DNA from: an uncultured Ignavibacteria bacterium
Lineage (GTDB): Bacteria; Bacteroidota; Ignavibacteria; SZUA-365
Length of the DNA: 64,000 nucleotides
Reading direction: 5' to 3'
Assembly: GCA_913061095.1 (NCBI GenBank)
Contig: CAJXVM010000003.1
Location: 62,001 to 126,000, forward strand
Below, in pieces: positions 15,791 to 48,192 of this stretch. The first letter of the stretch is position 1. Each line of letters opens with the position of its first letter. The position numbers were made by a program, and so were the translations under genes. The notes below the pieces were generated by a model. That model saw nothing but the letters and a program-made list of their open reading frames with translations, had not been told where the DNA came from and made no database searches.

Positions 15791-16026
15791 ACCACACGCT
15801 TACGCGTGTGGCTACCGCCTGACACTGACGGGGGCAGGTCGCCTGACCACACGCTTACGCGTGTGGATACCGCCTGACACTGACGGGAGCAGGTCGCCTG
15901 ACCACACGCTTACGCGTGTGGCTACCGCCTGACACTGACGGGAGCAGGTCGCCTGACCACACGCTCACGCGTGTGATTACCGCATTCCGCCGGTGGTGTG
16001 TGCTAACCACACCCGTGAGGGTGTGG
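15791..16026. repeat. Four 55-bp tandem repeats with a REP-like palindrome, plus one degenerate copy
   Basis: Units begin at 15791, 15846, 15901 and 15956 (period exactly 55). Each opens with the hairpin CCACACGC-TTAC-GCGTGTGG (CTCAC in the fourth), followed by a conserved 35-base linker containing GCCTGACACTGACGGG. A diverged hairpin CCACACCCGTGAGGGTGTGG closes the array at 16006-16026. Because the linkers are conserved this is not a CRISPR. It is a tandem extragenic palindromic element. Confidence 0.9.
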
Positions 16027-31555: not shown

Positions 31556-32755
31556 TCAGATCTTGGGACGCGAGAGCCTGCCCATGAACAGAATACTGCC
31601 GCTGCTGTTGTCTCGAATCAGGAAAAGAAATGGGTGGTCGGCGCGAAACAGCGGGTACCGGCTGGCGGACTTCGTCTGCATGCCGATGCCTGTAGCAGCG
31701 GCCGCCTCGGTTCCTTCTTCGTTGACATCGACATAAGCTTTATGCTTGATCTGCCCGATCCAGAGGTCTCCCGCCGGCAATCCCATCCCGCTGAAATCCG
31801 CGACGTCAGGGAGAAAGGCATCATTCATACCCAGACTCCGGCAGGCGGGTACGAGATCATAACCCGATGCGAGTTTGAATTTCGGGATGGACAGGTCAAT
31901 GATCCGCGGTGACGCGCTGTCCAGCTGCGCCAGCCATCGCGTGAGCGTCTCCGCGGTCAGGTCGTTTTCCAGCGCAGTGAGTCCATGTGTCTCCTTCGGC
32001 AGTACCATCACCATGGACAGGCGATCCCCCCTGTACGGCAGGGATACCGCCTGGAAGCCTGCGTTCTCAAGCAGACGAAAGCGACCGCGCTGCTGCATAA
32101 ATGGATGCAGCACCTGCTTCCCCGGCGAGAGCTGGAATTGCGCGTCCCGCGTGTGGGAGGGCTCGAAACGGAATTTCCAACTGCCCGAGAAAGAGATCGC
32201 GCTCAGCAGCACGCACACCGTGTTCGAAGGAATGTGCTCCATAATGCTCTCTATGCGACCCTCTGTCCGCTCATACACCCATTCGTTGATCTCTCCCACC
32301 CCTCCGCTGAAAATCGCAGCATGATAGCTGTCTTTGAGCAGCGAACGGAATTCCTCATCCACCCGTCCTCCAGTCAGGCACAGGCCGTTGGCAATACGGA
32401 GTGTTTGCCCGTTTTCCACGTCGGTGGATTGCAGCTGTCGGTCCAGCTCCATGTAGGCCGCGTCGGGATCCAGGGTGCTGCTGAAGTGCAGGGCGTCCCT
32501 CATTTCCCTCTCGGTATTCCCTCGTGCTCCGGCGGCCGTCATGCCGAGTGTTGCGGCTATACCGTACGAGGAAAAAAGGACATTCCCTTCTGCGTGTTTG
32601 AGCTGCCGGTAGAGGTCTGACGCGAACAGCGTATTGGCCTGGACGAGGGCTTCGACTGCGGTGCGATCCTCTGCGGAGTCCGGTTGAAAATGCGTGGGCG
32701 CTGCGAGTGTCAGAGACAACAGGACAGCGGTCAATGCCCTGAACGAGAAATACAT
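31556..32755 (-). CDS. Secreted serpin (serine protease inhibitor family)
   Basis: 399 residues, the normal serpin length, with a signal peptide (ALTAVLLSLTLAAP). Serpin landmarks: NVLFSSYGIAATLGMTAAGARGNTEREM near the N-terminus (shown in parts), VCVLLSAISFSGSWKFRF, and IKHKAYVDVNEEGTEAAAAT (breach/hinge). The strand and P-site region ends HPFLFLIRDNSSGSILFMGRL. The hinge G-T-E-A-A-A-A-T fits the inhibitory consensus (small residues at P12-P9). P1 is most likely Lys in MQTKSAS, predicting trypsin-like protease targets. A ribosome site GAGGTGA precedes the ATG. It may protect secreted T9SS products from proteases. Confidence 0.93.
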   Translation of the reverse strand: MYFSFRALTAVLLSLTLAAPTHFQPDSAEDRTAVEALVQANTLFASDLYRQLKHAEGNVLFSSYGIAATLGMTAAGARGNTEREMRDALHFSSTLDPDAAYMELDRQLQSTDVENGQTLRIANGLCLTGGRVDEEFRSLLKDSYHAAIFSGGVGEINEWVYERTEGRIESIMEHIPSNTVCVLLSAISFSGSWKFRFEPSHTRDAQFQLSPGKQVLHPFMQQRGRFRLLENAGFQAVSLPYRGDRLSMVMVLPKETHGLTALENDLTAETLTRWLAQLDSASPRIIDLSIPKFKLASGYDLVPACRSLGMNDAFLPDVADFSGMGLPAGDLWIGQIKHKAYVDVNEEGTEAAAATGIGMQTKSASRYPLFRADHPFLFLIRDNSSGSILFMGRLSRPKI

Positions 32756-36007: not shown

Positions 36008-36178
36008 CATACCGCTTCGGCGCTTCGCCAATTCACCGGCAGCCGACGTAATGCGTGACCGGAACCATAAAATCATGATAAATGACTTGCACTTCTGTCA
36101 TTCGCCTCATACATTATTACAATTGCAATACATTATTGTCTTATTCGCCTGTTTTTTTTGAACGGAAGCTGAACGGCC

Positions 36179-37225
36179 ATGCATGTGACGTCCACGACAT
36201 CGGACGAAGCATACGCACCTCCGGCATGGACGAAGGATCTTCTCGCCCATTCCATCGTCGCCCGCAGTGCAACGATGCGTACGATTTACGAGCGCATCGA
36301 CATGATTGCGCAGACGGCGGCGACTGTGCTGATCACCGGCGAGACCGGTGTCGGCAAAGAGCTGATCGCGGAATACGTGCACCGTACCAGTCCGCGCAGT
36401 CACCGGCCGTTTATCAAGGTCGCTCTCGCGGCCCTGCCTCCCGAACTGCTGGAGAGCGAGCTGTTCGGCCACGAGAAAGGGGCGTTCACGAATGCGTTCA
36501 GCAGTAAGCGCGGGCTGTTCGAACTGGCCGATACCGGCACGATTCTGCTCGATGACATAGACGATTTTCCGCTGCATCTGCAGGTGAAGCTGCTGCGGGT
36601 GCTCGAGGGGAGAGAGATCATGCGCATCGGCGGTACACGCAGCATTCCCATCAACGTGCGCGTGCTGTGTGCGACCAAGGTAGACCTGCGCGACCTGGTG
36701 CATCGCGGGCTGTTCCGCTCCGACCTGTTCTACCGCATCAACGTGATGCCGATCACCATTCCCCCGCTCCGCGAGCGTCCGGAGGATGTTTCGCTGCTCA
36801 TCGACCATTTCCTCGGCCGCTACTCGCTCGACGGCGACCTGTCGCTGAGCGAGGAAGCACTTGAGCGACTGACGACATACTCCTGGCCGGGAAACATTCG
36901 TGAACTGCGCAACGTGGTGCAGCGCATCGCCCTCACCTGCCGCGGAACGGTGCTCGTGGCCGATCTGCCCGCTGAGATCCGCGATCAGAGCCCGGTCCAT
37001 CATGTGCTGAAAAACTGCGCACGCTGCTTCGCCGAGGGAGAAATGTCGCTCGATGAGCTTCTGCGCTGCCTCGAATACAACATGCTGCTCCGCTCCCTCC
37101 GTGAGCACGGCGGCAACCGCACGCATGCAGCGAAGATGCTGCGCATGAGCCTCTCCACCTTCCGCGACCGTCTGAAAAAACATCACCTCGAACACATCGA
37201 CCGCAATCATCCTCCGTCCGGCTAA
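36179..37225 (+). CDS. Stand-alone sigma-54-type AAA+ activator with Fis HTH
   Basis: 348 residues, no N-terminal sensory domain (AAA+ starts at about 25). Walker A LITGETGVGKELIAEYVH, ELFGHEKGAFTNAF (position of the sigma-54-contact GAFTGA loop; here GAFTNA), Walker B TGTILLDDIDDFPL, sensor and Arg-finger region LFRSDLFYRINVMPITIPPL, RERPEDVSLLIDHFL, and YSWPGNIRELRNVVQRI. The C-terminal Fis-like HTH is NRTHAAKMLRMSLSTFRDRL. It sits directly upstream of twin palindromes and a consensus sigma-54 promoter for the etf-hdr-hydrogenase operon, so it is the likely activator. Control may come from its concentration or from a partner protein. Confidence 0.92.
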   Translation: MHVTSTTSDEAYAPPAWTKDLLAHSIVARSATMRTIYERIDMIAQTAATVLITGETGVGKELIAEYVHRTSPRSHRPFIKVALAALPPELLESELFGHEKGAFTNAFSSKRGLFELADTGTILLDDIDDFPLHLQVKLLRVLEGREIMRIGGTRSIPINVRVLCATKVDLRDLVHRGLFRSDLFYRINVMPITIPPLRERPEDVSLLIDHFLGRYSLDGDLSLSEEALERLTTYSWPGNIRELRNVVQRIALTCRGTVLVADLPAEIRDQSPVHHVLKNCARCFAEGEMSLDELLRCLEYNMLLRSLREHGGNRTHAAKMLRMSLSTFRDRLKKHHLEHIDRNHPPSG

Positions 37226-37251
37226 CGGGTCACCCACTGCACTCCGCCACA

Positions 37252-37305
37252 CCCCTTCACCTCTTCACCCCTTCACCTCTTCACCCCTTCACCTATTCAC
37301 CCTTC
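37252..37305. repeat. 16-bp tandem repeats, about 3.3 units
   Basis: CCCCTTCACCTCTTCA at 37252, 37268 and 37284 (last with TATTCA), then a partial unit. It lies between the activator gene and its presumed binding sites. Confidence 0.9.
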
Positions 37306-37312
37306 CACACAA

Positions 37313-37352
37313 CCTGCGGATTCCCGCAGGCAAACCTGCGGATTCCCGCAGG
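37313..37352. promoter_or_regulatory. Twin palindromic activator sites (presumed UAS)
   Basis: Two identical copies of CCTGCGG-ATT-CCCGCAGG at 37313-37330 and 37335-37352. Their centres are 22 bases (two helical turns) apart and about 80 and 60 bases upstream of the -24 element. This is the usual position for enhancer sites of sigma-54 activators with Fis-type DNA-binding domains. Confidence 0.75.
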
Positions 37353-37402
37353 TGCGGCAGCACTCCCCGAACGAATTCGAGCATTTTTTCGCGACTTCCG
37401 AA

Positions 37403-37418
37403 TGGCACAGTTCTTGCT
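37403..37418 (+). promoter_or_regulatory. Sigma-54 (-24/-12) promoter of the etf-hdr-hydrogenase operon
   Basis: TGGCAC-AGTTC-TTGCT is a perfect match to the consensus TGGCAC-N5-TTGCW. Predicted start near 37429, giving a leader of about 117 nt to etfB. Confidence 0.88.
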
Positions 37419-37471
37419 AAAAAAGAAAGGTAACTCCAGTAACCGACTCTGCACCGAAACGAGGAAGAGCC

Positions 37472-37549
37472 ATGATTCCACTTGCCAGTCTTCGTGAGGG
37501 GACACGGCCCCGAATATTCTCCGCTCCTTCCGGGAGGGTGATCCCGTGA
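37472..37549 (+). CDS. Possible 25-residue leader peptide coupled to etfB
   Basis: The frame ATG (37472) to TGA (37549) encodes MIPLASLREGTRPRIFSAPS followed by GRVIP. A ribosome-site-like GAGGAAGAG lies just upstream. Its TGA overlaps the GTG start of etfB (GTGA), so translation could be coupled. It lies inside the leader of the sigma-54 transcript. It is too short to prove by sequence and could be a chance frame. Confidence 0.4.
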   Translation: MIPLASLREGTRPRIFSAPSGRVIP

Positions 37550-38316
37550 ACATTCTCGTCATTCTCAAACAGGTTCCGGATCTCGTCGAGGAACTCGAGA
37601 TCAATGATGACGGAACGGATCTCGACCGCACCTGGATGCGCTACATTCCAAGCGAATACGACGAACACGCGCTCGAGCAGGCAATCCTGCTCAAGGAAGA
37701 GCATGGCGGCACGGTGACCGCACTGTGCCTGCGGATCGGCGAGGTCGACGACACTCTCTTTACCGCCGCGGCCAGGGGCGCCGATCGCCTCGTGCGCATC
37801 GAGGGCGATTTCGAGGGCATCTCCTCGCGGGATGCCGCCGCCGTGTACGCCGATCACATCCGTCGCGGGAACTACGACCTTGTGCTGACCGGCGTGCAGG
37901 CACATGATGATCTGAATGGTCCCGTCGGCGCGCGCCTCGCCGCCCAGCTCGAGATTCCCTATGTCGGCGTCGTCAGCGGCATGCATCTGGATCCGGAGAC
38001 CGGGGTCATTCATCTGCACAAGGAGTATCCCGGCGGACTACTCACCGTCATCCGCACCGAGCTCCCGGCGGTCGTGGGCATACAGAGCGCCGTAAAACCG
38101 CCACGCTACGTGCCCATCGCCAAAATCCGCCAGGCCTCGAAATCTGCGGAGATCGGTGAGGAAACGGCGGAGCCGCAATCTCTGACACCGGGATATACCG
38201 TTCGCCGCGTCTTCAAACCCGAGGGCGGCGGCCGCGCAGAAATCATCGACGGCGCACCGGAGGACATCGCCGCGCGCCTCGTCTCCATTTTTTCCGAACA
38301 TGGACTGGTGAGGTGA
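37546..38316 (+). CDS. etfB: Electron transfer flavoprotein, beta subunit
   Basis: 256 residues. It forms the EtfAB heterodimer that accepts electrons from acyl-CoA dehydrogenases. N-terminus NILVILKQVPDLVEELEI, IPSEYDEHALEQAILLKEE, and LTGVQAHDDLNGPVGARLA at the AMP or second-FAD site. The conserved recognition-loop region is KPPRYVPIAKIRQASK near 190. The nucleotide-site sequence fits neither the classical QxIDDDxxQTG nor the clear bifurcating QxIDGDTAQVGP form by eye, so bifurcation cannot be called. GTG start preceded by GGGAGG. First main gene after the sigma-54 promoter; etfA follows 3 bases later. Confidence 0.95.
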   Translation: MNILVILKQVPDLVEELEINDDGTDLDRTWMRYIPSEYDEHALEQAILLKEEHGGTVTALCLRIGEVDDTLFTAAARGADRLVRIEGDFEGISSRDAAAVYADHIRRGNYDLVLTGVQAHDDLNGPVGARLAAQLEIPYVGVVSGMHLDPETGVIHLHKEYPGGLLTVIRTELPAVVGIQSAVKPPRYVPIAKIRQASKSAEIGEETAEPQSLTPGYTVRRVFKPEGGGRAEIIDGAPEDIAARLVSIFSEHGLVR

Positions 38317-38319
38317 AGC

Positions 38320-39297
38320 ATGAGCATCAGCATTTTTGTCATCGCGGAACACCTTGAGGGAACGCTTGCGGACATGACGTTCGAAATGCTCGGCAAGGCC
38401 CGGCAGCTCGCCGACGAGCATGGTGGCATGGTCACCGCCGTGCTTGCGGGGTACAACGTCGCTCAGCTGGCAGAACAGCTCGGTGCGGCCGACGCGCTTA
38501 TCCTCATCGAAGACGAACTGTTAGCCGAATTTGCGCCGCAGCCGTATCAGGATGTGATATCAGGGCTGATTCGCGAGCGCGCGCCCGGACTGGTGATGGT
38601 GGGATCGACATCCATGGGTCTCGACCTCGCCGCGGCACTGGCCACGACGCTGAATGTCCCCATGCTTTCCTCCTGTATCGACCTGTCCGTCGAGGATGAC
38701 GCGTACGTCGTAACAAGCCAGCTCTACGGCGGGAAAATCATGATGGAAACAGCCGTGACGGCAGGCACCGCCATCGCGCAGATCCTGCCCGGCGCATTCC
38801 GGGCCGAAGACGGACAGCGTGCGGGCACGCCGACGCTCGAGGAGATCCCTCCCGGCCTGCATCCCGAAAACTTCCGCATGCGTTTCGAAAATTTCATCAA
38901 GCCGGAAGCCGGTGATATCGATATCACGCAGGCACCGATCCTCGTCTCCGTCGGACGCGGCATTCAGACGCAGGAGAACATTGCGCTCGCAGAGGAACTG
39001 GCCGAAGCGCTCGGCGGCTCGGTGTCGTCTTCTCGTCCCATCGTGGACCAGGACTGGCTGCCGGTCACGCGGCAGGTCGGAAAATCGGGCATGAGCGTCA
39101 AGCCGCGACTGTATCTCGCGCTCGGTATCAGCGGTGCCCCGGAACATGTCGAGGGCATGAAAAACGCCGATCTGATCGTCGCAGTCAATACGGATCCCGA
39201 CGCACCGATCTTCTCGGTCGCCCATTACGGTGTCGTCGCCGACATCTTCGACGTGATGCCCGCACTTGAAGAGCGACTGGGAGAGAGGGTGTCATGA
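38320..39297 (+). CDS. etfA: Electron transfer flavoprotein, alpha subunit
   Basis: 325 residues. The N-terminal domain includes ISIFVIAEHLEGTLADMTFE, VLAGYNVAQLAEQLGAADAL and LVMVGSTSMGLDLAAALA. The C-terminal FAD domain has VSVGRGIQTQENIALAEELA, ALGGSVSSSRPIVDQDWLP (Arg/Ser contacts to FAD), QVGKSGMSVKPRLYLALGIS, GAPEHVEGMKNADLIVAVN and the terminal DPDAPIFSVAHYGVVADIFD. It should carry the electron-shuttling FAD. Its stop overlaps the membrane oxidoreductase gene by 4 bases (ATGA), coupling ETF synthesis to its presumed redox partner. Confidence 0.96.
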   Translation: MSISIFVIAEHLEGTLADMTFEMLGKARQLADEHGGMVTAVLAGYNVAQLAEQLGAADALILIEDELLAEFAPQPYQDVISGLIRERAPGLVMVGSTSMGLDLAAALATTLNVPMLSSCIDLSVEDDAYVVTSQLYGGKIMMETAVTAGTAIAQILPGAFRAEDGQRAGTPTLEEIPPGLHPENFRMRFENFIKPEAGDIDITQAPILVSVGRGIQTQENIALAEELAEALGGSVSSSRPIVDQDWLPVTRQVGKSGMSVKPRLYLALGISGAPEHVEGMKNADLIVAVNTDPDAPIFSVAHYGVVADIFDVMPALEERLGERVS

Positions 39298-41384
39298 ACG
39301 GCACGGACATCGGCCGCAGCACACTGATCGGCATGCCGCCCTGGGCCATCGTGCTCTTCTACGTCCTCACCGCAGCCGCACTCGCGATATTTACCTGGGG
39401 TATCGTGCGCCTCGTCCGGAAATACCGCATGGGCCGGCGCGCGGCAGGGAGACGTCCCGCTGCATCGGAGCTGCTTCGAACGTTTTTCCGCGCGATCGGA
39501 AACGTCACGGTGCTGCGCGACGACCTGTATGCCGGCATCGCGCATCTCCTGGTCCTTTCCGGTTTCGTGGTGCTGTTCATCGGAACGCTCATCGTGCTCG
39601 TGGACCGCGACATCCTTCGCTTCGTCCTTCCGTCACTGGTGTTCTGGGAGGGCGATTTCTATCTCGGGTTTTCCACGTTCATGGACGTGTTCGGCGTCAT
39701 CCTGCTCGCCGGGCTGCTGATGCTTGCCGTGCGGCGGGCATTCTCCCGCCTCCCGCAGCTGGATTACAGGCACAGTTTTCGTGAAGAGGTTTCCCGGCGC
39801 TCGATGGCGGCGGGTGACTGGGTGTTTCTCGGGCTGATCTTTTTCATCGTCATCGGCGGATTTGCCCTCGAGGCGGTGCGCCTCGTCGCCGTGAGACCGG
39901 AGTTCGAGGTTTGGTCACCGGTGGGATGGTGGGCCTCGGATATCCTGCGCAGCGCCGGCATGGACGCCGGGGAGGCCTCTTCATGGTATCCCGTGTTCTG
40001 GTGGACGCACAGCGCTGCCTCGCTCGCGTTCGTCGCATACGTGCCGTGGTCGAAGGCCGTGCACATGCTGCTCGCGTATGTCAGCCTGGCATGGAAGGAT
40101 GAAACGCAGAATGCCAGCCTGCCCGCCCCTCCTGAGAACGAGGCCGGTGGATACACGGCACCGACCGATCTGACCTGGCTTGAACTGGTGGGGCTCGACG
40201 CCTGCATCCGCTGCGGTCGCTGCCATGTACGCTGTCCTTCCTCTCTGGCCGGCATGCCGCTCTCTCCGCGTGATGTGATTCTGGAGCTGCGGAATCATGC
40301 GAACAACACGCTCCTGCATTTGCGCGGGAACGGCAACGGTCTGCACAGGATGACCGGCGACGTCATCCCCGAGCAGACATTGTGGTCGTGCATCAGCTGC
40401 TCCAACTGCGCGACACACTGTCCTGTCGGGATCAATCACGTTCCCCTCATGGTGCAGATGCGGCGCGCCCTTGTAAGCGACGGATCCGTGGACGAGCAGC
40501 TGCAGCAGACACTCGTGAATCTGCAGCGCTGCGGCAACGCGATGGGACAATCCGATCGTATGCGCGCGAAATGGACAAAGGAGCTTCCGTTCAAGATCCG
40601 TGATGCGCGCCGGGAGGATGTCGAGTATCTCTGGTTCGTCGGTGACAACGCCTCATACGATCCCCGTGTCCAGGGGTACACCCGCATCACGGCGAAGCTG
40701 TTCGAAGCCGCCGGGCTTGATTTCGGCATCCTGTACGAAGCAGAACGCAACGCGGGAAATGACGTACGCCGCGTCGGCGAGGAGGGGCTGTTCGAAATGC
40801 TGGCGGAGAAGAACATCCGCGCCTTTGCAAAGTCCCGCTTCCGCACCATCGTTACGACAGACCCGCACAGCTACAATACCCTCAAAAACGAGTATCCCGC
40901 TTTCGGGGCGGAATATCCCGTCATCCACTACACCGAGCTGCTCGCAGCACTGATCGAAAATGGACATCTCCTGCCGGTCCGTCGCGTCGGCGGGCGCGTC
41001 ACCTACCAGGATCCGTGCTACCTCGCGCGCTACAACGGCCTCGAGAATACGCCGCGCACCCTGCTGGACTATGCGGGCGTGGAGCTTGTCGAAATGAAGC
41101 GCCGGGGACGCGACGCCTGGTGCTGCGGCGCGGGAGGCGGACGCCTGTGGATGGAAGACATTCCGGCAAAGGATGAGCGTCCGGCTGAGCAGCGTATCCG
41201 CGAAGCCGCGGCGCTTGACGGCGTGGACACAATCGTCACCGCCTGTCCGAAAGATCTCGTCATGTTCACCGACGCGATCAAGAATGTCGGGCTGGAAGGG
41301 AAATTCTTCGTGCGCGACATCGCGCACTATGTCTGGGAGGCCATCGAACAACCCATACCGGAACATCTGGAAAAGGAGGCATGA
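39294..41384 (+). CDS. ETF:(mena)quinone-type membrane FeS oxidoreductase (cytochrome b + ferredoxin + HdrD-like CCG domains)
   Basis: 696 residues. Five or six TM helices at about 16-38, 78-103, 120-145, 165-195 and 235-265 form a NarI/DsrM-like b-type cytochrome region. Two [4Fe-4S] sites follow (CIRCGRCHVRCPSS about 304; CISCSNCATHCPVG about 366). HdrD-like cysteine-rich domains come next, with PCYLARYNGLENTP (about 575) and WCCGAGGGRLWME (about 610). This is the architecture of the FeS ETF:menaquinone oxidoreductase described in syntrophic fatty-acid oxidisers and related to EtfD. It follows etfBA with overlap, so it probably links ETF to the quinone pool in the inner membrane. Heme ligands were not resolved individually. 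Confidence 0.9.
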   Translation: MNGTDIGRSTLIGMPPWAIVLFYVLTAAALAIFTWGIVRLVRKYRMGRRAAGRRPAASELLRTFFRAIGNVTVLRDDLYAGIAHLLVLSGFVVLFIGTLIVLVDRDILRFVLPSLVFWEGDFYLGFSTFMDVFGVILLAGLLMLAVRRAFSRLPQLDYRHSFREEVSRRSMAAGDWVFLGLIFFIVIGGFALEAVRLVAVRPEFEVWSPVGWWASDILRSAGMDAGEASSWYPVFWWTHSAASLAFVAYVPWSKAVHMLLAYVSLAWKDETQNASLPAPPENEAGGYTAPTDLTWLELVGLDACIRCGRCHVRCPSSLAGMPLSPRDVILELRNHANNTLLHLRGNGNGLHRMTGDVIPEQTLWSCISCSNCATHCPVGINHVPLMVQMRRALVSDGSVDEQLQQTLVNLQRCGNAMGQSDRMRAKWTKELPFKIRDARREDVEYLWFVGDNASYDPRVQGYTRITAKLFEAAGLDFGILYEAERNAGNDVRRVGEEGLFEMLAEKNIRAFAKSRFRTIVTTDPHSYNTLKNEYPAFGAEYPVIHYTELLAALIENGHLLPVRRVGGRVTYQDPCYLARYNGLENTPRTLLDYAGVELVEMKRRGRDAWCCGAGGGRLWMEDIPAKDERPAEQRIREAAALDGVDTIVTACPKDLVMFTDAIKNVGLEGKFFVRDIAHYVWEAIEQPIPEHLEKEA

Positions 41385-41388
41385 TTCT

Positions 41389-42597
41389 ATGCTTGCCGGC
41401 GAAGAAGTCATTGAACAGATGTGGGGCGTATCCCTTGACCGGCTCTACGAATCGGCGGAAGGACAGCGCATTCTCTCGTGCATTCAGTGCGGCACCTGTG
41501 CCGGTGCCTGTCCCTACGGAGAACATATGCTCTATCCGCCGCGGCGCATCATCACGATGCTCAAGGCCGGACTCATCGAGGAGGTTTTCGACTCCGACAG
41601 TCTGTTCAAATGCGTCAACTGCTACACCTGCATGACGAAATGTCCGCGAGAAATCAAGCTGACGGAAATCCTGCTGCCACTTGTCAAGGAGCAGAGCGCC
41701 GTCCGTCTCGAGGAAATGCCAGCGGAACTGCAGAAGGCCATCGAGAACACCTACCGCTACGGGAATTCCTACGGCGAATCCGCCCGCAAACGCGCGGCGT
41801 GGATCGACACCATTGATGTCCCCATCCGCATCCTCGCGAAGGATCCCACGCCGGTGGACATCCTGTGGTTCGTCGAATGCGATCTGTCTTACCATCCCCG
41901 CGGACAGGATGCAGCCCGCGCGACCGCCCTGCTCTTCCATCTGCTTGACCTGGATTTCGCCATCCTCGGTCCCGAAGAGCGCTGCGCGGGCGACTGCGGA
42001 CGTCTCTCCTGGGAGCCCGGTCTCGCGGAGGCGCTGGTGGATTACAACCTGTCGATATTCGAGAAGTACCGGTTCAACCGCATCGTCACCAACGATCCGC
42101 ATGCGCTCGACGCGTTCAAGTACCGCTATCCGATGTTCGAGTTCAAGTACAAGACCACGGCTACGGTGCCGGAACTGCACCGGCATCTCGACCGGCTCGC
42201 GCCAATGCTCAGCAGGAAACTCGATTACCTGGTGACCTACCACGATTCGTGCTGCCTTGGCAGGCACAACGGATTTTACGACGAGCCGCGTGCCCTGCTC
42301 GAGGCCATCCCGGGGGTGCGCCTGGTGGAGATGGAGCACACCCGCGAAAACTCGATCTGCTGCGGTGGCGGGGGCGGCGGCATGTGGCTCGACACCTGGT
42401 ACAAGCAGCAGGACATCGAGCGGCTCTCGGATCGCCGGCTGCGTGAAGTCATCGCCACCGGTGCGGATGTGCTCGCCGTCGCCTGTCCCTACGAGGTTTC
42501 CCGCTTCGAAGACGCGGTCAAGCTCGCCGGGTACGAGGACCGCATCATCGTGCGCGACATCACCGAACTCCTTGTCGAAGCTCTCGGAGGACACTGA
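41389..42597 (+). CDS. HdrCB-type fusion: ferredoxin plus CCG heterodisulfide-reductase-like subunit
   Basis: 402 residues, cytoplasmic. HdrC-like N-terminus with two [4Fe-4S] motifs (CIQCGTCAGACPYG about 31-44; CVNCYTCMTKCPREI about 75-89). HdrB-like CCG domains follow with VECDLSYHPRG and CAGDCGRLSW, then YHDSCCLGRHNG, ENSICCGGGGGGMWLD and VACPYE. These cysteines suit a non-cubane cluster as in HdrB. Start at 41389 has GGAGG about 10 bases upstream; a longer frame from 41173 overprints the previous gene. Directly upstream of hdrA, so it should form an Hdr complex; the physiological disulfide or acceptor in this bacterium is unknown. Confidence 0.93.
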   Translation: MLAGEEVIEQMWGVSLDRLYESAEGQRILSCIQCGTCAGACPYGEHMLYPPRRIITMLKAGLIEEVFDSDSLFKCVNCYTCMTKCPREIKLTEILLPLVKEQSAVRLEEMPAELQKAIENTYRYGNSYGESARKRAAWIDTIDVPIRILAKDPTPVDILWFVECDLSYHPRGQDAARATALLFHLLDLDFAILGPEERCAGDCGRLSWEPGLAEALVDYNLSIFEKYRFNRIVTNDPHALDAFKYRYPMFEFKYKTTATVPELHRHLDRLAPMLSRKLDYLVTYHDSCCLGRHNGFYDEPRALLEAIPGVRLVEMEHTRENSICCGGGGGGMWLDTWYKQQDIERLSDRRLREVIATGADVLAVACPYEVSRFEDAVKLAGYEDRIIVRDITELLVEALGGH

Positions 42598-42598
42598 C

Positions 42599-44602
42599 AT
42601 GAAAGGCAACGGTGAAATTCGCATCGGATTCTACATCTGTCACTGCGGAAGCAATATCGCCGGCGTCATCGACGTCGAGCGCGTCGCGGAATATGCCGGC
42701 ACGCTGCCCGGCGTCGTCGTCTCGCGCGACTATAAATACATGTGCTCCGATCCGGGGCAGGATCTGCTGCGCCAGGACATCGCCGAGCACAGGCTTAACC
42801 GAATCGTCGTCGCGTCATGTTCTCCCCTCCTGCACGAGCAGACCTTCCGCCGCGCCGCCGAAGCGGGCGGCATCAATCCCTACTTCGTGCAGATGGTCAA
42901 CATTCGCGAGCACGGAACCTGGGTGCACGATGACGCGGAATACATGACGGGCAAGGCGATGGACCTGGCGCGCGCAGCCGCGCTGCGCGTCTACGCCCAT
43001 CAGCCGCTCGAGCGCAAGCAGGTGCCCATCAAACCCGATGTGCTTGTCGTCGGCGGCGGCATCGCGGGCATTCACGCCGCCCTGACGATGGCCGACGCCG
43101 GCAAGCATGTGTATCTCGTCGAACGCGAGCCGACCATCGGCGGGCACATGGCACAGTTCGACAAGACCTTCCCCACGCTCGACTGCGCGGCATGCATCCT
43201 CACCCCGAAAATGACGGCGGTGCGCGCGCATCCCAACATCACACTGTGGACATGGTCGGAAGTGGAGAAAGTCGATGGCTTCATCGGCAACTACACGGTG
43301 ACCGTCAAGCGCAAGGCGCGCTACGTTGACGAGGATCTCTGCGTCGGCTGCATGGAATGCATCGAGGCCTGCGTCTACAAGCGCGGCAAGTTCGACGACG
43401 AATTCAACGTCGGGCTCAGCAAGCGCAAGCCGGTGTACATCCCCTTCCCGCAGGCCGTCCCGCCCGTGCCAGTGATCGATGCGGGCAACTGCCTGCACCT
43501 GTCCAAGGGCAAGTGCAAGGATACCTGCGTGGAAATCTGCGGCGACCGCAAGGCCATCAATTTCGAGATTGAACCGGAGTACCAAGAGATCGAAGTCGGC
43601 GCGGTGGTGCTGGCGACGGGCTTCCAGCCGTTCGATGCCACGCGCATTCCGTATTACGGCTACGGGAAATATCCCAACGTCTACACCGCTCTCGAACTCG
43701 AGCGCCTCGTCAACGCGTCGGGTCCGACCGGCGGCACGGTGCGGCTGCCTGACGGACGCACCCCCGAACGCGTGGCCATCGTGCACTGCGTGGGCTCGCG
43801 CGACGAGCATTACAACCGCTGGTGTTCGCGCGTCTGCTGCATGTATTCACTGAAGCTGGCGCACCTGGTCAAGGAGAAAACCGGCGCCGAGGTGTTCAAT
43901 TTCTACATCGACATGCGCGCGCCCGGCAAGAGCATGGAGGAATTCTACAACCGCGTTTCCACCGAGGGCGTGCATCTCGTGCGCGGCCGCGTGGCGGATG
44001 TGTACGCCGAGCAGACGGATGAGAAGAAAACCAACGGACAGATTGGCCGCGTGGTCATCCAGGCCGAGGACACGCTTATCGGGCGCATCAGGAAGATTCC
44101 CGTGGACATGCTGATACTCAGCACGGGGCTGCAGCCGCAGCACGATTCCGAGGACATCCGCCGCATGTTCAATATATCCTGCTCCGCGGGAGGATTCTTC
44201 CTCGAGCGGCATCCCAAGCTCGCCCCGGTCAATACCTTCACCGACGGCATTTTCCTCGCCGGCACCTGCCAGGGACCGAAAGATATTCCCGACACCGTCG
44301 CGCAGGCGGGCGCCGCCGCATCCGAAGCGCTCGCGCTCATCGACCGCGGCGTGTTTGAGCTGGAACCTAACACGGCATACGTGCTGGAGGAGGAATGCTC
44401 CGGGTGCAAATCCTGCATCCCGCTCTGTCCCTACACCGCCATCGCATTCGAGGAGGAGAAGAAAAAGGCGGAGATCAACGAGGCCCTCTGCAAGGGATGC
44501 GGCACCTGCGTTGCCAGCTGTCCCTCGGGCTCGATCCGCCAGCACCTGTTCGAAGACGAAGAAATCTACCGCGAGATCCACGGACTGCTCGCGTATGCCT
44601 GA
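42599..44602 (+). CDS. hdrA: HdrA-type flavin-containing subunit (electron bifurcation)
   Basis: 667 residues. HdrA holds the FAD at which electrons are split. N-terminal domain RIGFYICHCGSNIAGVIDVE ... VVASCSPLLHEQTFRRAAE (about 1-140); FAD Rossmann domain VLVVGGGIAGIHAALTMAD and GGHMAQFDKTFPTLDCAACI; inserted ferredoxin segment CVGCMECIEACVY ... GNCLHLSKGKCKDTCVEIC; and two C-terminal [4Fe-4S] sites CSGCKSCIPLCPY and CKGCGTCVASCPSG. All cluster cysteines are present. It lies between the HdrCB and MvhD genes, the normal neighbours in the MvhADG-HdrABC complex. Expected to exchange electrons with ferredoxin and HdrB while receiving them from hydrogenase. Confidence 0.96.
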   Translation: MKGNGEIRIGFYICHCGSNIAGVIDVERVAEYAGTLPGVVVSRDYKYMCSDPGQDLLRQDIAEHRLNRIVVASCSPLLHEQTFRRAAEAGGINPYFVQMVNIREHGTWVHDDAEYMTGKAMDLARAAALRVYAHQPLERKQVPIKPDVLVVGGGIAGIHAALTMADAGKHVYLVEREPTIGGHMAQFDKTFPTLDCAACILTPKMTAVRAHPNITLWTWSEVEKVDGFIGNYTVTVKRKARYVDEDLCVGCMECIEACVYKRGKFDDEFNVGLSKRKPVYIPFPQAVPPVPVIDAGNCLHLSKGKCKDTCVEICGDRKAINFEIEPEYQEIEVGAVVLATGFQPFDATRIPYYGYGKYPNVYTALELERLVNASGPTGGTVRLPDGRTPERVAIVHCVGSRDEHYNRWCSRVCCMYSLKLAHLVKEKTGAEVFNFYIDMRAPGKSMEEFYNRVSTEGVHLVRGRVADVYAEQTDEKKTNGQIGRVVIQAEDTLIGRIRKIPVDMLILSTGLQPQHDSEDIRRMFNISCSAGGFFLERHPKLAPVNTFTDGIFLAGTCQGPKDIPDTVAQAGAAASEALALIDRGVFELEPNTAYVLEEECSGCKSCIPLCPYTAIAFEEEKKKAEINEALCKGCGTCVASCPSGSIRQHLFEDEEIYREIHGLLAYA

Positions 44603-44624: not shown

Positions 44625-45158
44625 ATGCATCGAAAGGAAGAATCAGGAGAAACCGGCGTACCGTGGCGTCCGCGCATCGTGGCATTTTTCTGCAACTGGT
44701 GCACGTACACCGCGGCGGATCTCGCCGGTGTATCCCGCATGAAATACGCGCCCAACACGCGCATCATCCGCGTGATGTGCTCCGGGCGCATCGATCCACA
44801 ATTTGTGCTCGACGCATTCACCGAGGGTGCTGACGGCGTGCTCATCGGCGGCTGTCATCCCGGCGACTGTCATTATTCCGAGGGCAACTACAAGGCCCTG
44901 CGCCGCTATCATCTGCTTCGCCGCGTGCTGACGGGCATGGGCATCGACGAGCGCCGCTTCCGGCTCGAGTGGATTTCCGCTTCGGAGGGCGACAAGGTCA
45001 AGCAAGTCATCAACGAGATGGTGGAGCAGCTGCAGCAGCTCGGTCCGCTCGATCTGCCGACGGAGCGCATGCGTCTGGACAGCGAGCTGGAAGAAATGCG
45101 TCCGCGCCGATCTGTCATCGATATCAGCGAAGAACTCAAGGAGGCAGCCCATGTCTGA
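44625..45158 (+). CDS. mvhD: MvhD-type [2Fe-2S] hydrogenase delta subunit
   Basis: 177 residues. MvhD bridges HdrA and the hydrogenase. Motifs: IVAFFCNWCTYTAADLAG, IIRVMCSGRIDPQFVLDAF, GADGVLIGGCHPGDCHYSEG and NYKALRRYHLLRRVL. The cysteines match the [2Fe-2S] ligands of the family. ATG 44625 is preceded by AAGGAG; the longer frame is overprinting. The last 8 bases overlap the start of the hydrogenase small subunit, indicating one translation unit. Confidence 0.95.
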   Translation: MHRKEESGETGVPWRPRIVAFFCNWCTYTAADLAGVSRMKYAPNTRIIRVMCSGRIDPQFVLDAFTEGADGVLIGGCHPGDCHYSEGNYKALRRYHLLRRVLTGMGIDERRFRLEWISASEGDKVKQVINEMVEQLQQLGPLDLPTERMRLDSELEEMRPRRSVIDISEELKEAAHV

Positions 45159-46125
45159 GAAACCGAAAATCGGATTGTACTGGTGCGCTTCCTGCGGCGG
45201 CTGCGAGGAATCGGTTGTCGATCTCGCCGAAGACATCCTCGGCGTCGTTGAGGCGGTCGACATCGTGTTCTGGCCGGTGGCGATGGATTTCAAGCGCGCC
45301 GACGTCGAAGCAATGGAAGACGGGTCGATCACGGCGACGCTGATCAACGGCGCCGTGCGCACCTCCGAGCAGGAGGAAATGGTGCGCCTGCTGCGGCGCA
45401 AGAGCGCTGTGGTGATCGCATACGGATCCTGCGCGCATCTCGGCGGCATTCCCGGGCTGGCCAACCAGTTCGACCGCGAACAAATCCTCCGCTATGTCTA
45501 CGAGGAGGCTCCGACCGTTTCGAATGAGGCCGGCACGCGTCCCAGCACGGAGCATCGATTCAATGGCGACCGGGCCACGCTGCCTTCCTTTCACCACGCC
45601 GTACGTGCGCTCGACCAGGTGATCGACGTAGATTACTACATTCCCGGCTGCGCCCCGACGCCAAAGCTGCTCAAGCAGGCGGTGGAGGCACTGCTGACCG
45701 GCGCCCTTCCGCCAAAAGGCAGCGTCATCGCCCCCGACATCGCGCTCTGCGAAGAATGTCCGCGCAAGGATTCAAAACCCGAGGATTTGCACATCGAACG
45801 CTTCCATCGGCCGCATGCAGTGATGGCCGATCCCGACACCTGCCTGCTCGCACAGGGCATCGTGTGCATGGGACCGGCGACGCGCGGCGGCTGTGAGGCG
45901 TTGTGCATCAAGGGCAACATGCCGTGCACCGGCTGCTTTGGTCCGACTTCGCGGGTGCGCGACCAGGGTGCGAAGATCCTCTCCTCCGTCGCGGCAAGCA
46001 TCGACGCCGAGGAGGAGGCCGACATCATCGCAACGCTCGAAACCATCCCTGATCCGATCGGCACGTTCTACCGTTATGGGCTGCCCGGATCATTTCTCCG
46101 TAAATCGCTGTCGCAATCATCCTGA
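45151..46125 (+). CDS. mvhG: [NiFe] hydrogenase small subunit, group 3 (MvhG-like)
   Basis: 324 residues, three [4Fe-4S] clusters expected. Proximal cluster ligands in WCASCGGCEESVVDLAE, IAYGSCAHLGGIPGLANQ and YIPGCAPTPKLLKQ; the C-terminal Cys-rich region (ALCEECPRKDSK, CLLAQGIVCMGPATRGGC, CTGCFGPTSRVRDQ) supplies the medial and distal clusters. No signal peptide, so cytoplasmic. The combination with MvhD and HdrA is diagnostic of group 3c hydrogenases, here in a non-methanogen. It precedes the large subunit by 19 bases. Confidence 0.94.
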   Translation: MSEKPKIGLYWCASCGGCEESVVDLAEDILGVVEAVDIVFWPVAMDFKRADVEAMEDGSITATLINGAVRTSEQEEMVRLLRRKSAVVIAYGSCAHLGGIPGLANQFDREQILRYVYEEAPTVSNEAGTRPSTEHRFNGDRATLPSFHHAVRALDQVIDVDYYIPGCAPTPKLLKQAVEALLTGALPPKGSVIAPDIALCEECPRKDSKPEDLHIERFHRPHAVMADPDTCLLAQGIVCMGPATRGGCEALCIKGNMPCTGCFGPTSRVRDQGAKILSSVAASIDAEEEADIIATLETIPDPIGTFYRYGLPGSFLRKSLSQSS

Positions 46126-46144: not shown

Positions 46145-47665
46145 ATGCAGGAAGAATCCAAGGCGCTGTGGAATGACGCACAGGCCCGCGCCGCCCGTTC
46201 CGCGATGAATGCGCGGCGCATCACCATCGATCCCATCACGCGGCTCGAGGGACACGGCAAAGTCGACATCTTCCTCAATACCGAGGGCAATGTCGATCGC
46301 GCGTTCTTCCAGGTCCCCGAACTGCGCGGCTTCGAGATCTTCAGCCTGGGACGGCCGGCCGAGGACATGCCGCAGATCACCAGCCGCATCTGCGGCGTCT
46401 GCCCGACCGCGCATCACATGGCCGCCACCAAGACGCTGGACGATCTCTACAGGGTTGAACCGCCGCCGACGGCGAAAAAGCTCCGCGAACTGATGTACAA
46501 TATCTTCATGCTCGAGGATCACGCGCTGCACGTGTACATCCTCGGCGGACCCGACTTCATTGTCGGACCCGAGGCCCCGGCCGCGCTACGCAACGTGGTC
46601 GGCGTGATCGAAACCGTTGGTCTTGAAGTTGGCAAGAAAGTCATCAGCATGCGCCGACGGCTGCGCGAGCTGATGACGCTCATGGCCGGCAAGGCCGTGC
46701 ATCCGGTGTTCGGACTGCCGGGCGGGGTCTCGAAGGGCATCGCCAAAGAAGACATCAGCCATTTTCGCGAGGTCGCGCAGGACGCGCTGGAGTTTTCGCG
46801 CTTCACACTGCAGGTCTTCCACGACCTCGTCCTGAAGAATGACGACTACGTTAAACTGATCACCTCCGACACGTACACGCATCGGACTTACTACATGGGA
46901 CTGGTGGACGAAAACAACGCGGTGAATTTCTACGACGGAGATCTGCGCGTTGTCGATCCCACCGGCGGTGTCTTCGCCAGGTTCCCGGCCGCCAATTATC
47001 TCGACTACGTGGCCGAGCACGTTGAACCCTGGAGCTATGTGAAGTTCTGCTATCTCAAACCGGTCGGCTGGAACGGGTTTACCGAGGGAGCCGACAGTGG
47101 CATCTATGCCGTGGCTCCCCTTGCCCGCCTCAACGCCGCGCAGGGCATGGCGACACCCGAAGCGCAGAAAGCGTATGACGAATTCTTCGCCACGCTCGGA
47201 GAACCGGTGCATCACACGCTGGCGAACCACTGGGCGCGGGTCGTCGAAATGCTGCAGGCAGCGGAGCGCATCGTGGAACTGGTCAACGATGCGGAAATCA
47301 CCGGCACGGACATCCGCACGCTGCCGACCGAGACGCCCACATCGGGCATCGGCGTCGTGGAAGCGCCGCGCGGCACACTCTTCCATCACTACGAGACCGA
47401 TGAACGCGGACTGATCACAAAGGCCAACCTGATCGTGGCCACACAGAACAATTCCGCGCGCATGGCCATGAGCGTGGAAAAAGCCGCGAAGGATCTCGTC
47501 CGCAATGGCGAGGTATCGGACGGACTGCTGAACAAAATCGAGATGGCGTTCCGCGCCTATGATCCCTGTCACGCCTGCGCGACGCACACGCTGCCGGGTC
47601 AGATGCCACTCATCGCGCGCATCCGCGGTGCGGACGGCGAAATACTTCGGGAGCTGCGCAGGTGA
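46145..47665 (+). CDS. mvhA: [NiFe] hydrogenase large subunit, group 3 (MvhA-like)
   Basis: 506 residues. Ni-Fe ligand motifs are intact: L1 RICGVCPTAHHMA (CxxCxxxH) near residue 80 and L2 DPCHACATH near the C-terminus. Twenty-five residues follow the His of L2 and should be removed by the protease encoded next, which is typical. Other family blocks: ITIDPITRLEGHGKVDIFLN, PVFGLPGGVSKGI, WNGFTEGADSG. ATG 46145 is chosen; GGAGG is about 11 bases upstream. Catalyses reversible H2 oxidation, feeding electrons via MvhG-MvhD into HdrA. No hyp maturation genes occur in this window. Confidence 0.96.
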   Translation: MQEESKALWNDAQARAARSAMNARRITIDPITRLEGHGKVDIFLNTEGNVDRAFFQVPELRGFEIFSLGRPAEDMPQITSRICGVCPTAHHMAATKTLDDLYRVEPPPTAKKLRELMYNIFMLEDHALHVYILGGPDFIVGPEAPAALRNVVGVIETVGLEVGKKVISMRRRLRELMTLMAGKAVHPVFGLPGGVSKGIAKEDISHFREVAQDALEFSRFTLQVFHDLVLKNDDYVKLITSDTYTHRTYYMGLVDENNAVNFYDGDLRVVDPTGGVFARFPAANYLDYVAEHVEPWSYVKFCYLKPVGWNGFTEGADSGIYAVAPLARLNAAQGMATPEAQKAYDEFFATLGEPVHHTLANHWARVVEMLQAAERIVELVNDAEITGTDIRTLPTETPTSGIGVVEAPRGTLFHHYETDERGLITKANLIVATQNNSARMAMSVEKAAKDLVRNGEVSDGLLNKIEMAFRAYDPCHACATHTLPGQMPLIARIRGADGEILRELRR

Positions 47666-48192
47666 GCGGCCGCAACGGACGCGCAGGGAGAATTCTCGTG
47701 CTTGCGATGGGCAACGATCTGCTCAGCGATGACGGCGCGGCCCTCCATGCCTCGCGCCTCCTGCGCTGGATCGTCCCGGAGAATGTCGATGTCGTTGAAA
47801 CGTCGGAAGCCGGATTCGCCCTGCTGGAATTTCTCGAGGGGTACCCCCGTGCGCTGATCCTCGATGCCATCCGCACGGGGAAGCAGCCGCCGGGAACGCT
47901 GCTGCGATTGACGCAGGATGACTTCGCGCCCGTCGAATCCCCGTCGCCGCACTATGCGGGACTCCCTGATCTCAGGACTCTCGCGGATCAGAACGGAATC
48001 TCCTTCCCCGATGAAGTGCTGATGCTCGCCATGGAGGTACGTGATCCGTACAGCATTGGTGAGGAATTGACGCCGGAGGTGTCGATGGCGCTGCAGGACT
48101 ACGTTCGCGCGGCCGCGGACATTCTCATGCGCTGGGCGCGAAACGGCTCCCTATCGCACAAGCATCAGGCGGCAACCGGCCGCGCCGACTGA
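47662..48192 (+). CDS. Hydrogenase maturation endopeptidase (HycI/HyaD family)
   Basis: 176 residues. Cleaves the C-terminal tail of the large subunit after Ni insertion. Family features: ILVLAMGNDLLSDDGAALHA (with the metal-binding Asp in the D-D-G-A segment), DVVETSEAGFALLEFLEGY and PRALILDAIRTGKQPPG. GTG start overlaps the large-subunit stop by 4 bases. Its 3' end overlaps the tail of the converging DUF362 gene by 42 bases, so no terminator separates them. Confidence 0.93.
   Translation: MSGRNGRAGRILVLAMGNDLLSDDGAALHASRLLRWIVPENVDVVETSEAGFALLEFLEGYPRALILDAIRTGKQPPGTLLRLTQDDFAPVESPSPHYAGLPDLRTLADQNGISFPDEVLMLAMEVRDPYSIGEELTPEVSMALQDYVRAAADILMRWARNGSLSHKHQAATGRAD

Follow-up and report, generated by a model that had tools for sequence, protein, structure and literature searches.

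The window, by which we mean the entire 64,000-nucleotide stretch of DNA under study, carries a gene for a sigma-54 activator and, downstream of it, a predicted operon that runs from etfBA through hdr-like genes to a [NiFe] hydrogenase and its maturation protease (Table 1). The activator reading frame closes at 37225 and the etfB start codon lies at 37546; a tandem pair of palindromes and a -24/-12 promoter sequence stand between them. From etfB to the protease gene the coding sequence is nearly gapless, and the next gene, beyond 48192, is on the opposite strand. Elsewhere in the window, a 55-bp tandem repeat (15791-15983, 3.5 copies) contains the inverted repeat CACACGCTTACGCGTGTG, and a serpin gene on the minus strand (31556-32755; PF00079, E=6e-98) adjoins a gene for an FG-GAP repeat protein with a Por secretion tail.

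Table 1. Features of the activator gene, the intergenic region and the predicted operon.
Feature	Position	Strand	Basis and remarks
Stand-alone sigma-54 activator, 348 aa	36179-37225	+	PF00158, PF25601, PF02954 (Pfam)
Distal palindrome (UAS1), CCTGCGGATTCCCGCAGG	37313-37330	.	Predicted activator-binding site; family core 37315-37328
Proximal palindrome (UAS2), CCTGCGGATTCCCGCAGG	37335-37352	.	Identical to UAS1; core 37337-37350
-24/-12 promoter TGGCAC-N5-TTGCT, TGGCACAGTTCTTGCT	37403-37418	+	Exact match; predicted start near 37429
25-codon leader ORF, MIPLASLREGTRPRIFSAPSGRVIP	37472-37549	+	Overlaps etfB start by 4 nt
etfB, first enzyme gene	37546-38316	+	GTG start; PF01012
etfA	38320-39297	+	PF01012, PF00766
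Fe-S/CCG protein, weak NarI-like N-terminus (Etf:quinone-oxidoreductase/HdrD-like)	39294-41384	+	PF02754, Fer4; PF02665 just below cut-off
HdrC/B-like Fe-S/CCG protein	41389-42597	+	Start codon inferred from orthologues
HdrA-like flavoprotein	42599-44602	+	NF040770, E=5e-246; start inferred
MvhD/FlpD	44625-45158	+	PF02662; start inferred
[NiFe] hydrogenase small subunit, VhuG/MvhG-like	45151-46125	+	PF01058; NF045875
[NiFe] hydrogenase large subunit, VhuA/MvhA-like	46145-47665	+	NF041785, E=1e-119; PF00374; start inferred
Hydrogenase maturation protease, last operon gene	47662-48192	+	PF01750; TIGR00072

A compact sigma-54 activator and an rpoN gene

The activator comprises an AAA+ domain (residues 26-192; PF00158, 217 bits), a lid (198-274), a linker containing C280-x2-C283-x13-C297, and a Fis-type HTH (296-335). 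Pfam finds no receiver or other N-terminal sensor domain before residue 26, and since the reading frame opens only at 36173 (stop to stop, 36173-37225), there is no room for a hidden one. The Walker A motif GETGVGKE, the GAFTNA loop and the arginine fingers FRSDLFYR are intact. The loop reads mostly GA[FY]TSA across the activator's own family, and GAFTHA and GAYTDA occur among Desulfovibrio activators (PMC4641369). Walker B, at residues 125-126, is Asp-Asp rather than Asp-Glu, as it is in all 43 orthologues; the equivalent Glu-to-Asp change in PspF, E108D, leaves activation on duplex promoter DNA like that of the wild type (PMC4132715). Scores fall well below the equivalog cut-offs for NifA (TIGR01817, 315 bits against 529, over the AAA+ domain only) and PspF (TIGR02974, 256 against 444), and without a receiver domain the protein is not an NtrC-type response regulator of the HoxA/HupR kind. 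An AlphaFold model built from only 3 sequences reached a pLDDT of 47, too low for the model to be of use. The original prediction had proposed looking for rpoN, and the gene is indeed present in the same genome (G000:C1:33632-34108, E=9e-59), in a 503-aa frame ending with the RpoN box ARRTVAKYRE. Other AAA+ activators are encoded in this genome as well.

Paired palindromes upstream of a -24/-12 element

The original prediction described an exact consensus promoter, two identical palindromes 22 bases apart at about -60 and -80 from the -24 box, and an activator gene ending upstream, and each of these observations holds. The palindromes are 22 bp apart start to start, within a perfect 20-bp direct repeat, and their centres lie 81.5 and about 59.5 bp upstream of the -24 TGG, or at about -107 and -85 relative to the predicted transcription start. 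The GG and GC of the TGGCAY-N5-TTGC-type element are normally spaced. An 8-bp tandem repeat (CACCCCTT/CACCTCTT, 6.6 copies) occupies 37250-37302, in the gap that separates the palindromes from the activator stop; a similar CCCTTTTA repeat is found in the corresponding place, at a contig end, in a genome of the same genus (L054:1-60).

The promoter match, while real, is not in itself evidence. TGGCAC-N5-TTGCW occurs 5 times in the genome and 5 times in its reversed control, and TGGCAY-N5-TTGC 18 times in each, so that the consensus is found at chance frequency and proves nothing on its own; judging the promoter in this way was accordingly rejected. The palindromes are another matter. In the genome scan that had been suggested, CCTGCGG-N4-CCGCAGG was found at these two places only in 4.6 Mb, and nowhere in the reversed control. 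A matrix whose training left out the window gives the pair a score of 34.8, against 12.9 for the runner-up within the 64 kb. The genome has five exact CGG-N4-CCG pairs at 22 bp, and the other four, considered as candidate activator sites, were set aside as having no TGGCAY-type site close downstream.

The chance frequency of the consensus lends some weight to the idea that a housekeeping promoter drives the operon and that the -24/-12 match is coincidental, as does the fact that a sigma-70 scan may miss promoters of this phylum. Nonetheless, that scan found no sigma-70-like site on the plus strand between 36124 and etfB, and the -24/-12 element recurs at a fixed distance both in the same genus and across the class, which makes this explanation extremely unlikely.

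Conservation of the architecture across the class

A sample of 391 genomes of the class contains orthologues of the activator, at 50-64% identity, in 40 genomes, and two more turned up in a sample of the phylum outside it. The 43 class genes, that of the window included, form one clade (SH-aLRT 99), and their loci were retrieved and read. A symmetric palindrome matrix was built without the window, and the best pair and best -24/-12 site were taken at each locus; pairs scoring above 12 were accepted, the best of 600 shuffles having reached 11.8, and the per-locus shuffle fractions are uncorrected and serve as a rough guide. By this measure 38 of the 43 loci have a tandem palindrome pair and a -24/-12-like site after, or overlapping, the activator stop. 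The palindrome consensus across loci is TGCGGAATTCCGCA, with the core TGCGGA-N2-TCCGCA.

Spacing between the palindromes is 22 bp in 24 of these 38 loci, 21 bp in 12 and 20 bp in 2. The -24 TGG, whose distance from the second palindrome was not an input of the matrix, lies 56-61 bp away in 33 loci and, about one turn further, 67-70 bp away in 5; such near-constancy is expected if the proteins must share one face of the helix. The values for the window itself are 22 bp and 59 bp. The -12 element is TTGC in 22 of the 38 promoters, and several are degenerate. A strict pattern for the whole architecture had 14 matches among the 391 genomes, against zero in the reversed control; thirteen lie in genomes with an activator match, on the activator's own contig, and the fourteenth precedes etfB at the end of a contig in a genome of the same genus. 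In G004 ('Bacteroidetes bacterium Zod_Metabat.348', JAFGKR010000014.1), which belongs to the same genus, the promoter and sites lie at a contig end, ahead of an etfB 80% identical to that of the window.

There are exceptions. At L047 and L101 no array lies downstream of the activator, and one is found instead before the hydrogenase operon that precedes it. At L046 and L050, which encode sister proteins, another palindrome, TATCAAA-N2-TTTGATA, stands with a hybrid site 22 bp away and 57-58 bp from TGGCAC; here the recognition helix reads STLHYKM, where others have STFRDKL or similar. Judging from the sequences, site and protein appear to have changed together, although this covariation represents one evolutionary event only. 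L105 has only a weak pair, L088 has no palindrome site downstream of the activator, and neither orthologue outside the class has an adjacent array. No pair above threshold was found upstream of the activators, where autoregulatory sites would be looked for.

These exceptions bear on two further explanations. In the first, the palindromes would work in RNA, as tandem hairpins that end or stabilize the activator transcript, and the promoter-like sequence would be accidental. The perfect 7-bp GC-rich stems invite this reading, and the region folds better than its shuffles (z -3.9). However, neither a T-run nor a terminator-like site was found at the palindromes, and a search for Rfam families returned only tRNAs, so that a terminator or RNA element was rejected. 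Relatives, moreover, lose the outer stem yet retain the core TGCGGA..TCCGCA, a spacing of 20-22 bp and the -24 distance, the L047 and L101 arrays lie far from the activator stop, and at L046 and L050 the geometry persists with a different palindrome. We therefore regard RNA hairpins as highly improbable. In the second, some other regulator, a repressor or second activator, would bind the palindromes, and the neighboring AAA+ protein would have targets elsewhere. That the genome encodes other AAA+ activators leaves some scope for this; against it, throughout the class the sites go with this activator family, both members whose recognition helix differs also differ in their sites, and the distance to the -24 box is nearly constant. 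This, too, is very unlikely.

Among 17 loci of non-orthologous activators taken as a control, one (L025) has a comparable array. There, in the same family, a receiver-type activator lies beside a kinase-like frame; at about 2518-2650 stand CGGCATGATCATTGCA and a CACGGATTTCC pair spaced 20 bp, and the palindromes and the CGGCAT-N5-TTGC site precede a Tat-type oxidoreductase. The same DNA site thus appears, from its gene neighborhood, to be used at L025 under two-component control.

Predicted target operons in the window and its relatives

In the relatives, the activator loci adjoin hydrogenase genes, some with hypE or a maturation protease in addition. At most loci a gene for a protein of about 75 aa comes first after the promoter, and next come those for the Tat-type small subunit, large subunit, cytochrome b and protease of a group-1-type hydrogenase. 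L100b and L102 have protease-rubrerythrin-HdrC-HdrB-HdrA-MvhD-MvhG-MvhA, a few loci have cytochrome or molybdopterin-type genes, and the window's own family (G000, G004, G008, G005 and G007) has etfBA, with hdr-hydrogenase genes following where the contig extends. Operon type clusters on the activator tree, requiring 11 changes against a shuffled mean of 31.5, some of the automatic labels (e.g., L085) being rough. The original prediction of sigma-54 control over an Etf-Hdr-hydrogenase operon is thus supported, in that palindromes, spacing and distance to -24 are conserved and track the activator, but such control is not special to Etf-Hdr, most relatives having a group-1-type [NiFe] hydrogenase in its place. 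The module as a whole appears, from these comparisons, to be class-wide and to extend beyond any single operon. Within the window's own genome there are two further [NiFe] large-subunit clusters, neither with a matching palindrome array, and the switch therefore appears to be dedicated to the Etf-Hdr-hydrogenase operon.

The ~75-aa family, with the pattern V.L.GEVVE....-AKI...LGD, is encoded by the first gene in L040, L041, L045 and about 22 other loci. It has no Pfam or NCBIfam match, its AlphaFold model (single sequence) has a pLDDT of 57, again too low to be of use, and it is a candidate for a feedback partner or an assembly factor. The window's leader ORF, which begins about 43 nt after the predicted start, occupies the corresponding position, as does a 26-codon ORF without clear sequence similarity in G004 (L054:242-322). 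A locus in an Acidobacteria MAG (L170) contains hdr-etfBA-hdr-mvh genes, with HdrA, FlpD and hydrogenase subunits at 60-69% identity; no activator match was found within that locus.

Discussion

Overall, and leaving aside how the activator is gated, we believe that positions 37313-37418 very probably form the enhancer and promoter through which the neighboring activator, binding there, drives the etfBA-hdr-[NiFe] hydrogenase genes in a sigma-54 switch dedicated to them. The parts of this switch, their conserved geometry, the linkage of activator to site and the presence of rpoN come directly from sequence and comparison, and from them we infer activator binding, the start site and the operon transcript. 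In such a model, RpoN-RNA polymerase would wait as a closed complex at the -24/-12 element, and activator dimers would bind both palindromes, which share a face of the DNA at a separation of two helical turns. The bound activators would then form an AAA+ ring whose use of ATP opens the closed complex, and etfBA, the membrane Fe-S protein, the hdr genes and the [NiFe] hydrogenase would be transcribed as a single unit. Less certainly, the CxxC-x13-C linker may gate the activator, so that reducing or anoxic conditions would turn on H2 and electron metabolism.

This last step draws on the linker cysteines (C280, C283 and C297), which are present in 43/43 orthologues against 0/17 other activators, and also in the two orthologues outside the class. 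Redox cysteines also occur in NifA of alpha- and beta-proteobacteria, where the AAA+ domain ends and the same linker begins, and it has been proposed that they bind a metal cluster (PMC10590331, PMC7294313); at the same time, an extra Cys pair beside the DNA-binding domain of NifA proved not to be redox-regulatory (PMC10590331). Because the activator has no sensor domain, we favor, as a tentative reading, gating by the linker cysteines, through redox state, Fe-S or metal; a partner protein, as for PspF, or the level of activator alone may be responsible instead. More broadly, two-domain AAA+/HTH activators with a CxxC-x13-C linker sensor might constitute a new sensory class and a master switch of H2 and respiratory electron metabolism throughout the bacterial class, with a promoter module that has moved among the operons for group-1-type hydrogenase, Hdr-Mvh, Etf-Hdr-Mvh and cytochromes. 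We put this forward tentatively, as a proposal we find plausible and yet slightly doubt.

If the switch operates as proposed, it names a regulator, a binding site and a promoter for the hydrogenases, and for an Etf-Hdr-hydrogenase operon, of a Bacteroidota group that is large and mostly uncultured; for this group we found no literature on sigma-54 control of H2 metabolism. It also provides a testable recognition rule for genome scans (TGCGGA-N2-TCCGCA, 22 bp, and 57 bp to -24), and a compact system in which to study redox sensing by an activator without a sensor domain.

Known systems resemble this one in part. PspF-type activators likewise consist of AAA+ and HTH domains only and act from nearby upstream sites, but the similarity to the window activator is distant and confined to the AAA+ domain; PspF, moreover, lacks the CxxC-x13-C motif and is held by PspA. 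HoxA and HupR likewise exert NtrC-family control over [NiFe] hydrogenase genes, through receiver domains and H2-sensing partners, of which the window has neither. NifA combines a GAF domain and a TGT-N10-ACA site with four conserved Cys, partly inside the AAA+ domain, whereas the window activator has three Cys, differently spaced as CxxC-x13-C and all in the linker. In Desulfovibrio vulgaris, DVU2394, a sigma-54 activator of an operon with heterodisulfide reductase genes, sets a precedent for such control of Hdr genes; unlike the window activator it is a two-component response regulator with GSFTGA, and an association with Etf and [NiFe] hydrogenase was not found in the portions of the two accounts that cover it (PMC3333781, PMC4641369). 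The closest parallel in layout is the anfH promoter of Rhodobacter capsulatus, with the same order of activator gene, two dyad sites, RpoN site and target operon, where full activation needs both AnfA sites (PMC7294313). AnfA, however, has a GAF domain with Cys motifs, a TAC-N6-GTA site and an Fe-nitrogenase target (PMC7294313), whereas the window activator has no N-terminal domain, a TGCGGA-N2-TCCGCA site and hydrogenase/Hdr targets. The switch is therefore of a known kind, a sigma-54 activator with paired upstream sites in an AnfA-like layout; as a variant of that kind it is set apart by the lack of a sensor domain, a new site, the invariant linker cysteines and the hydrogenase/Hdr targets.
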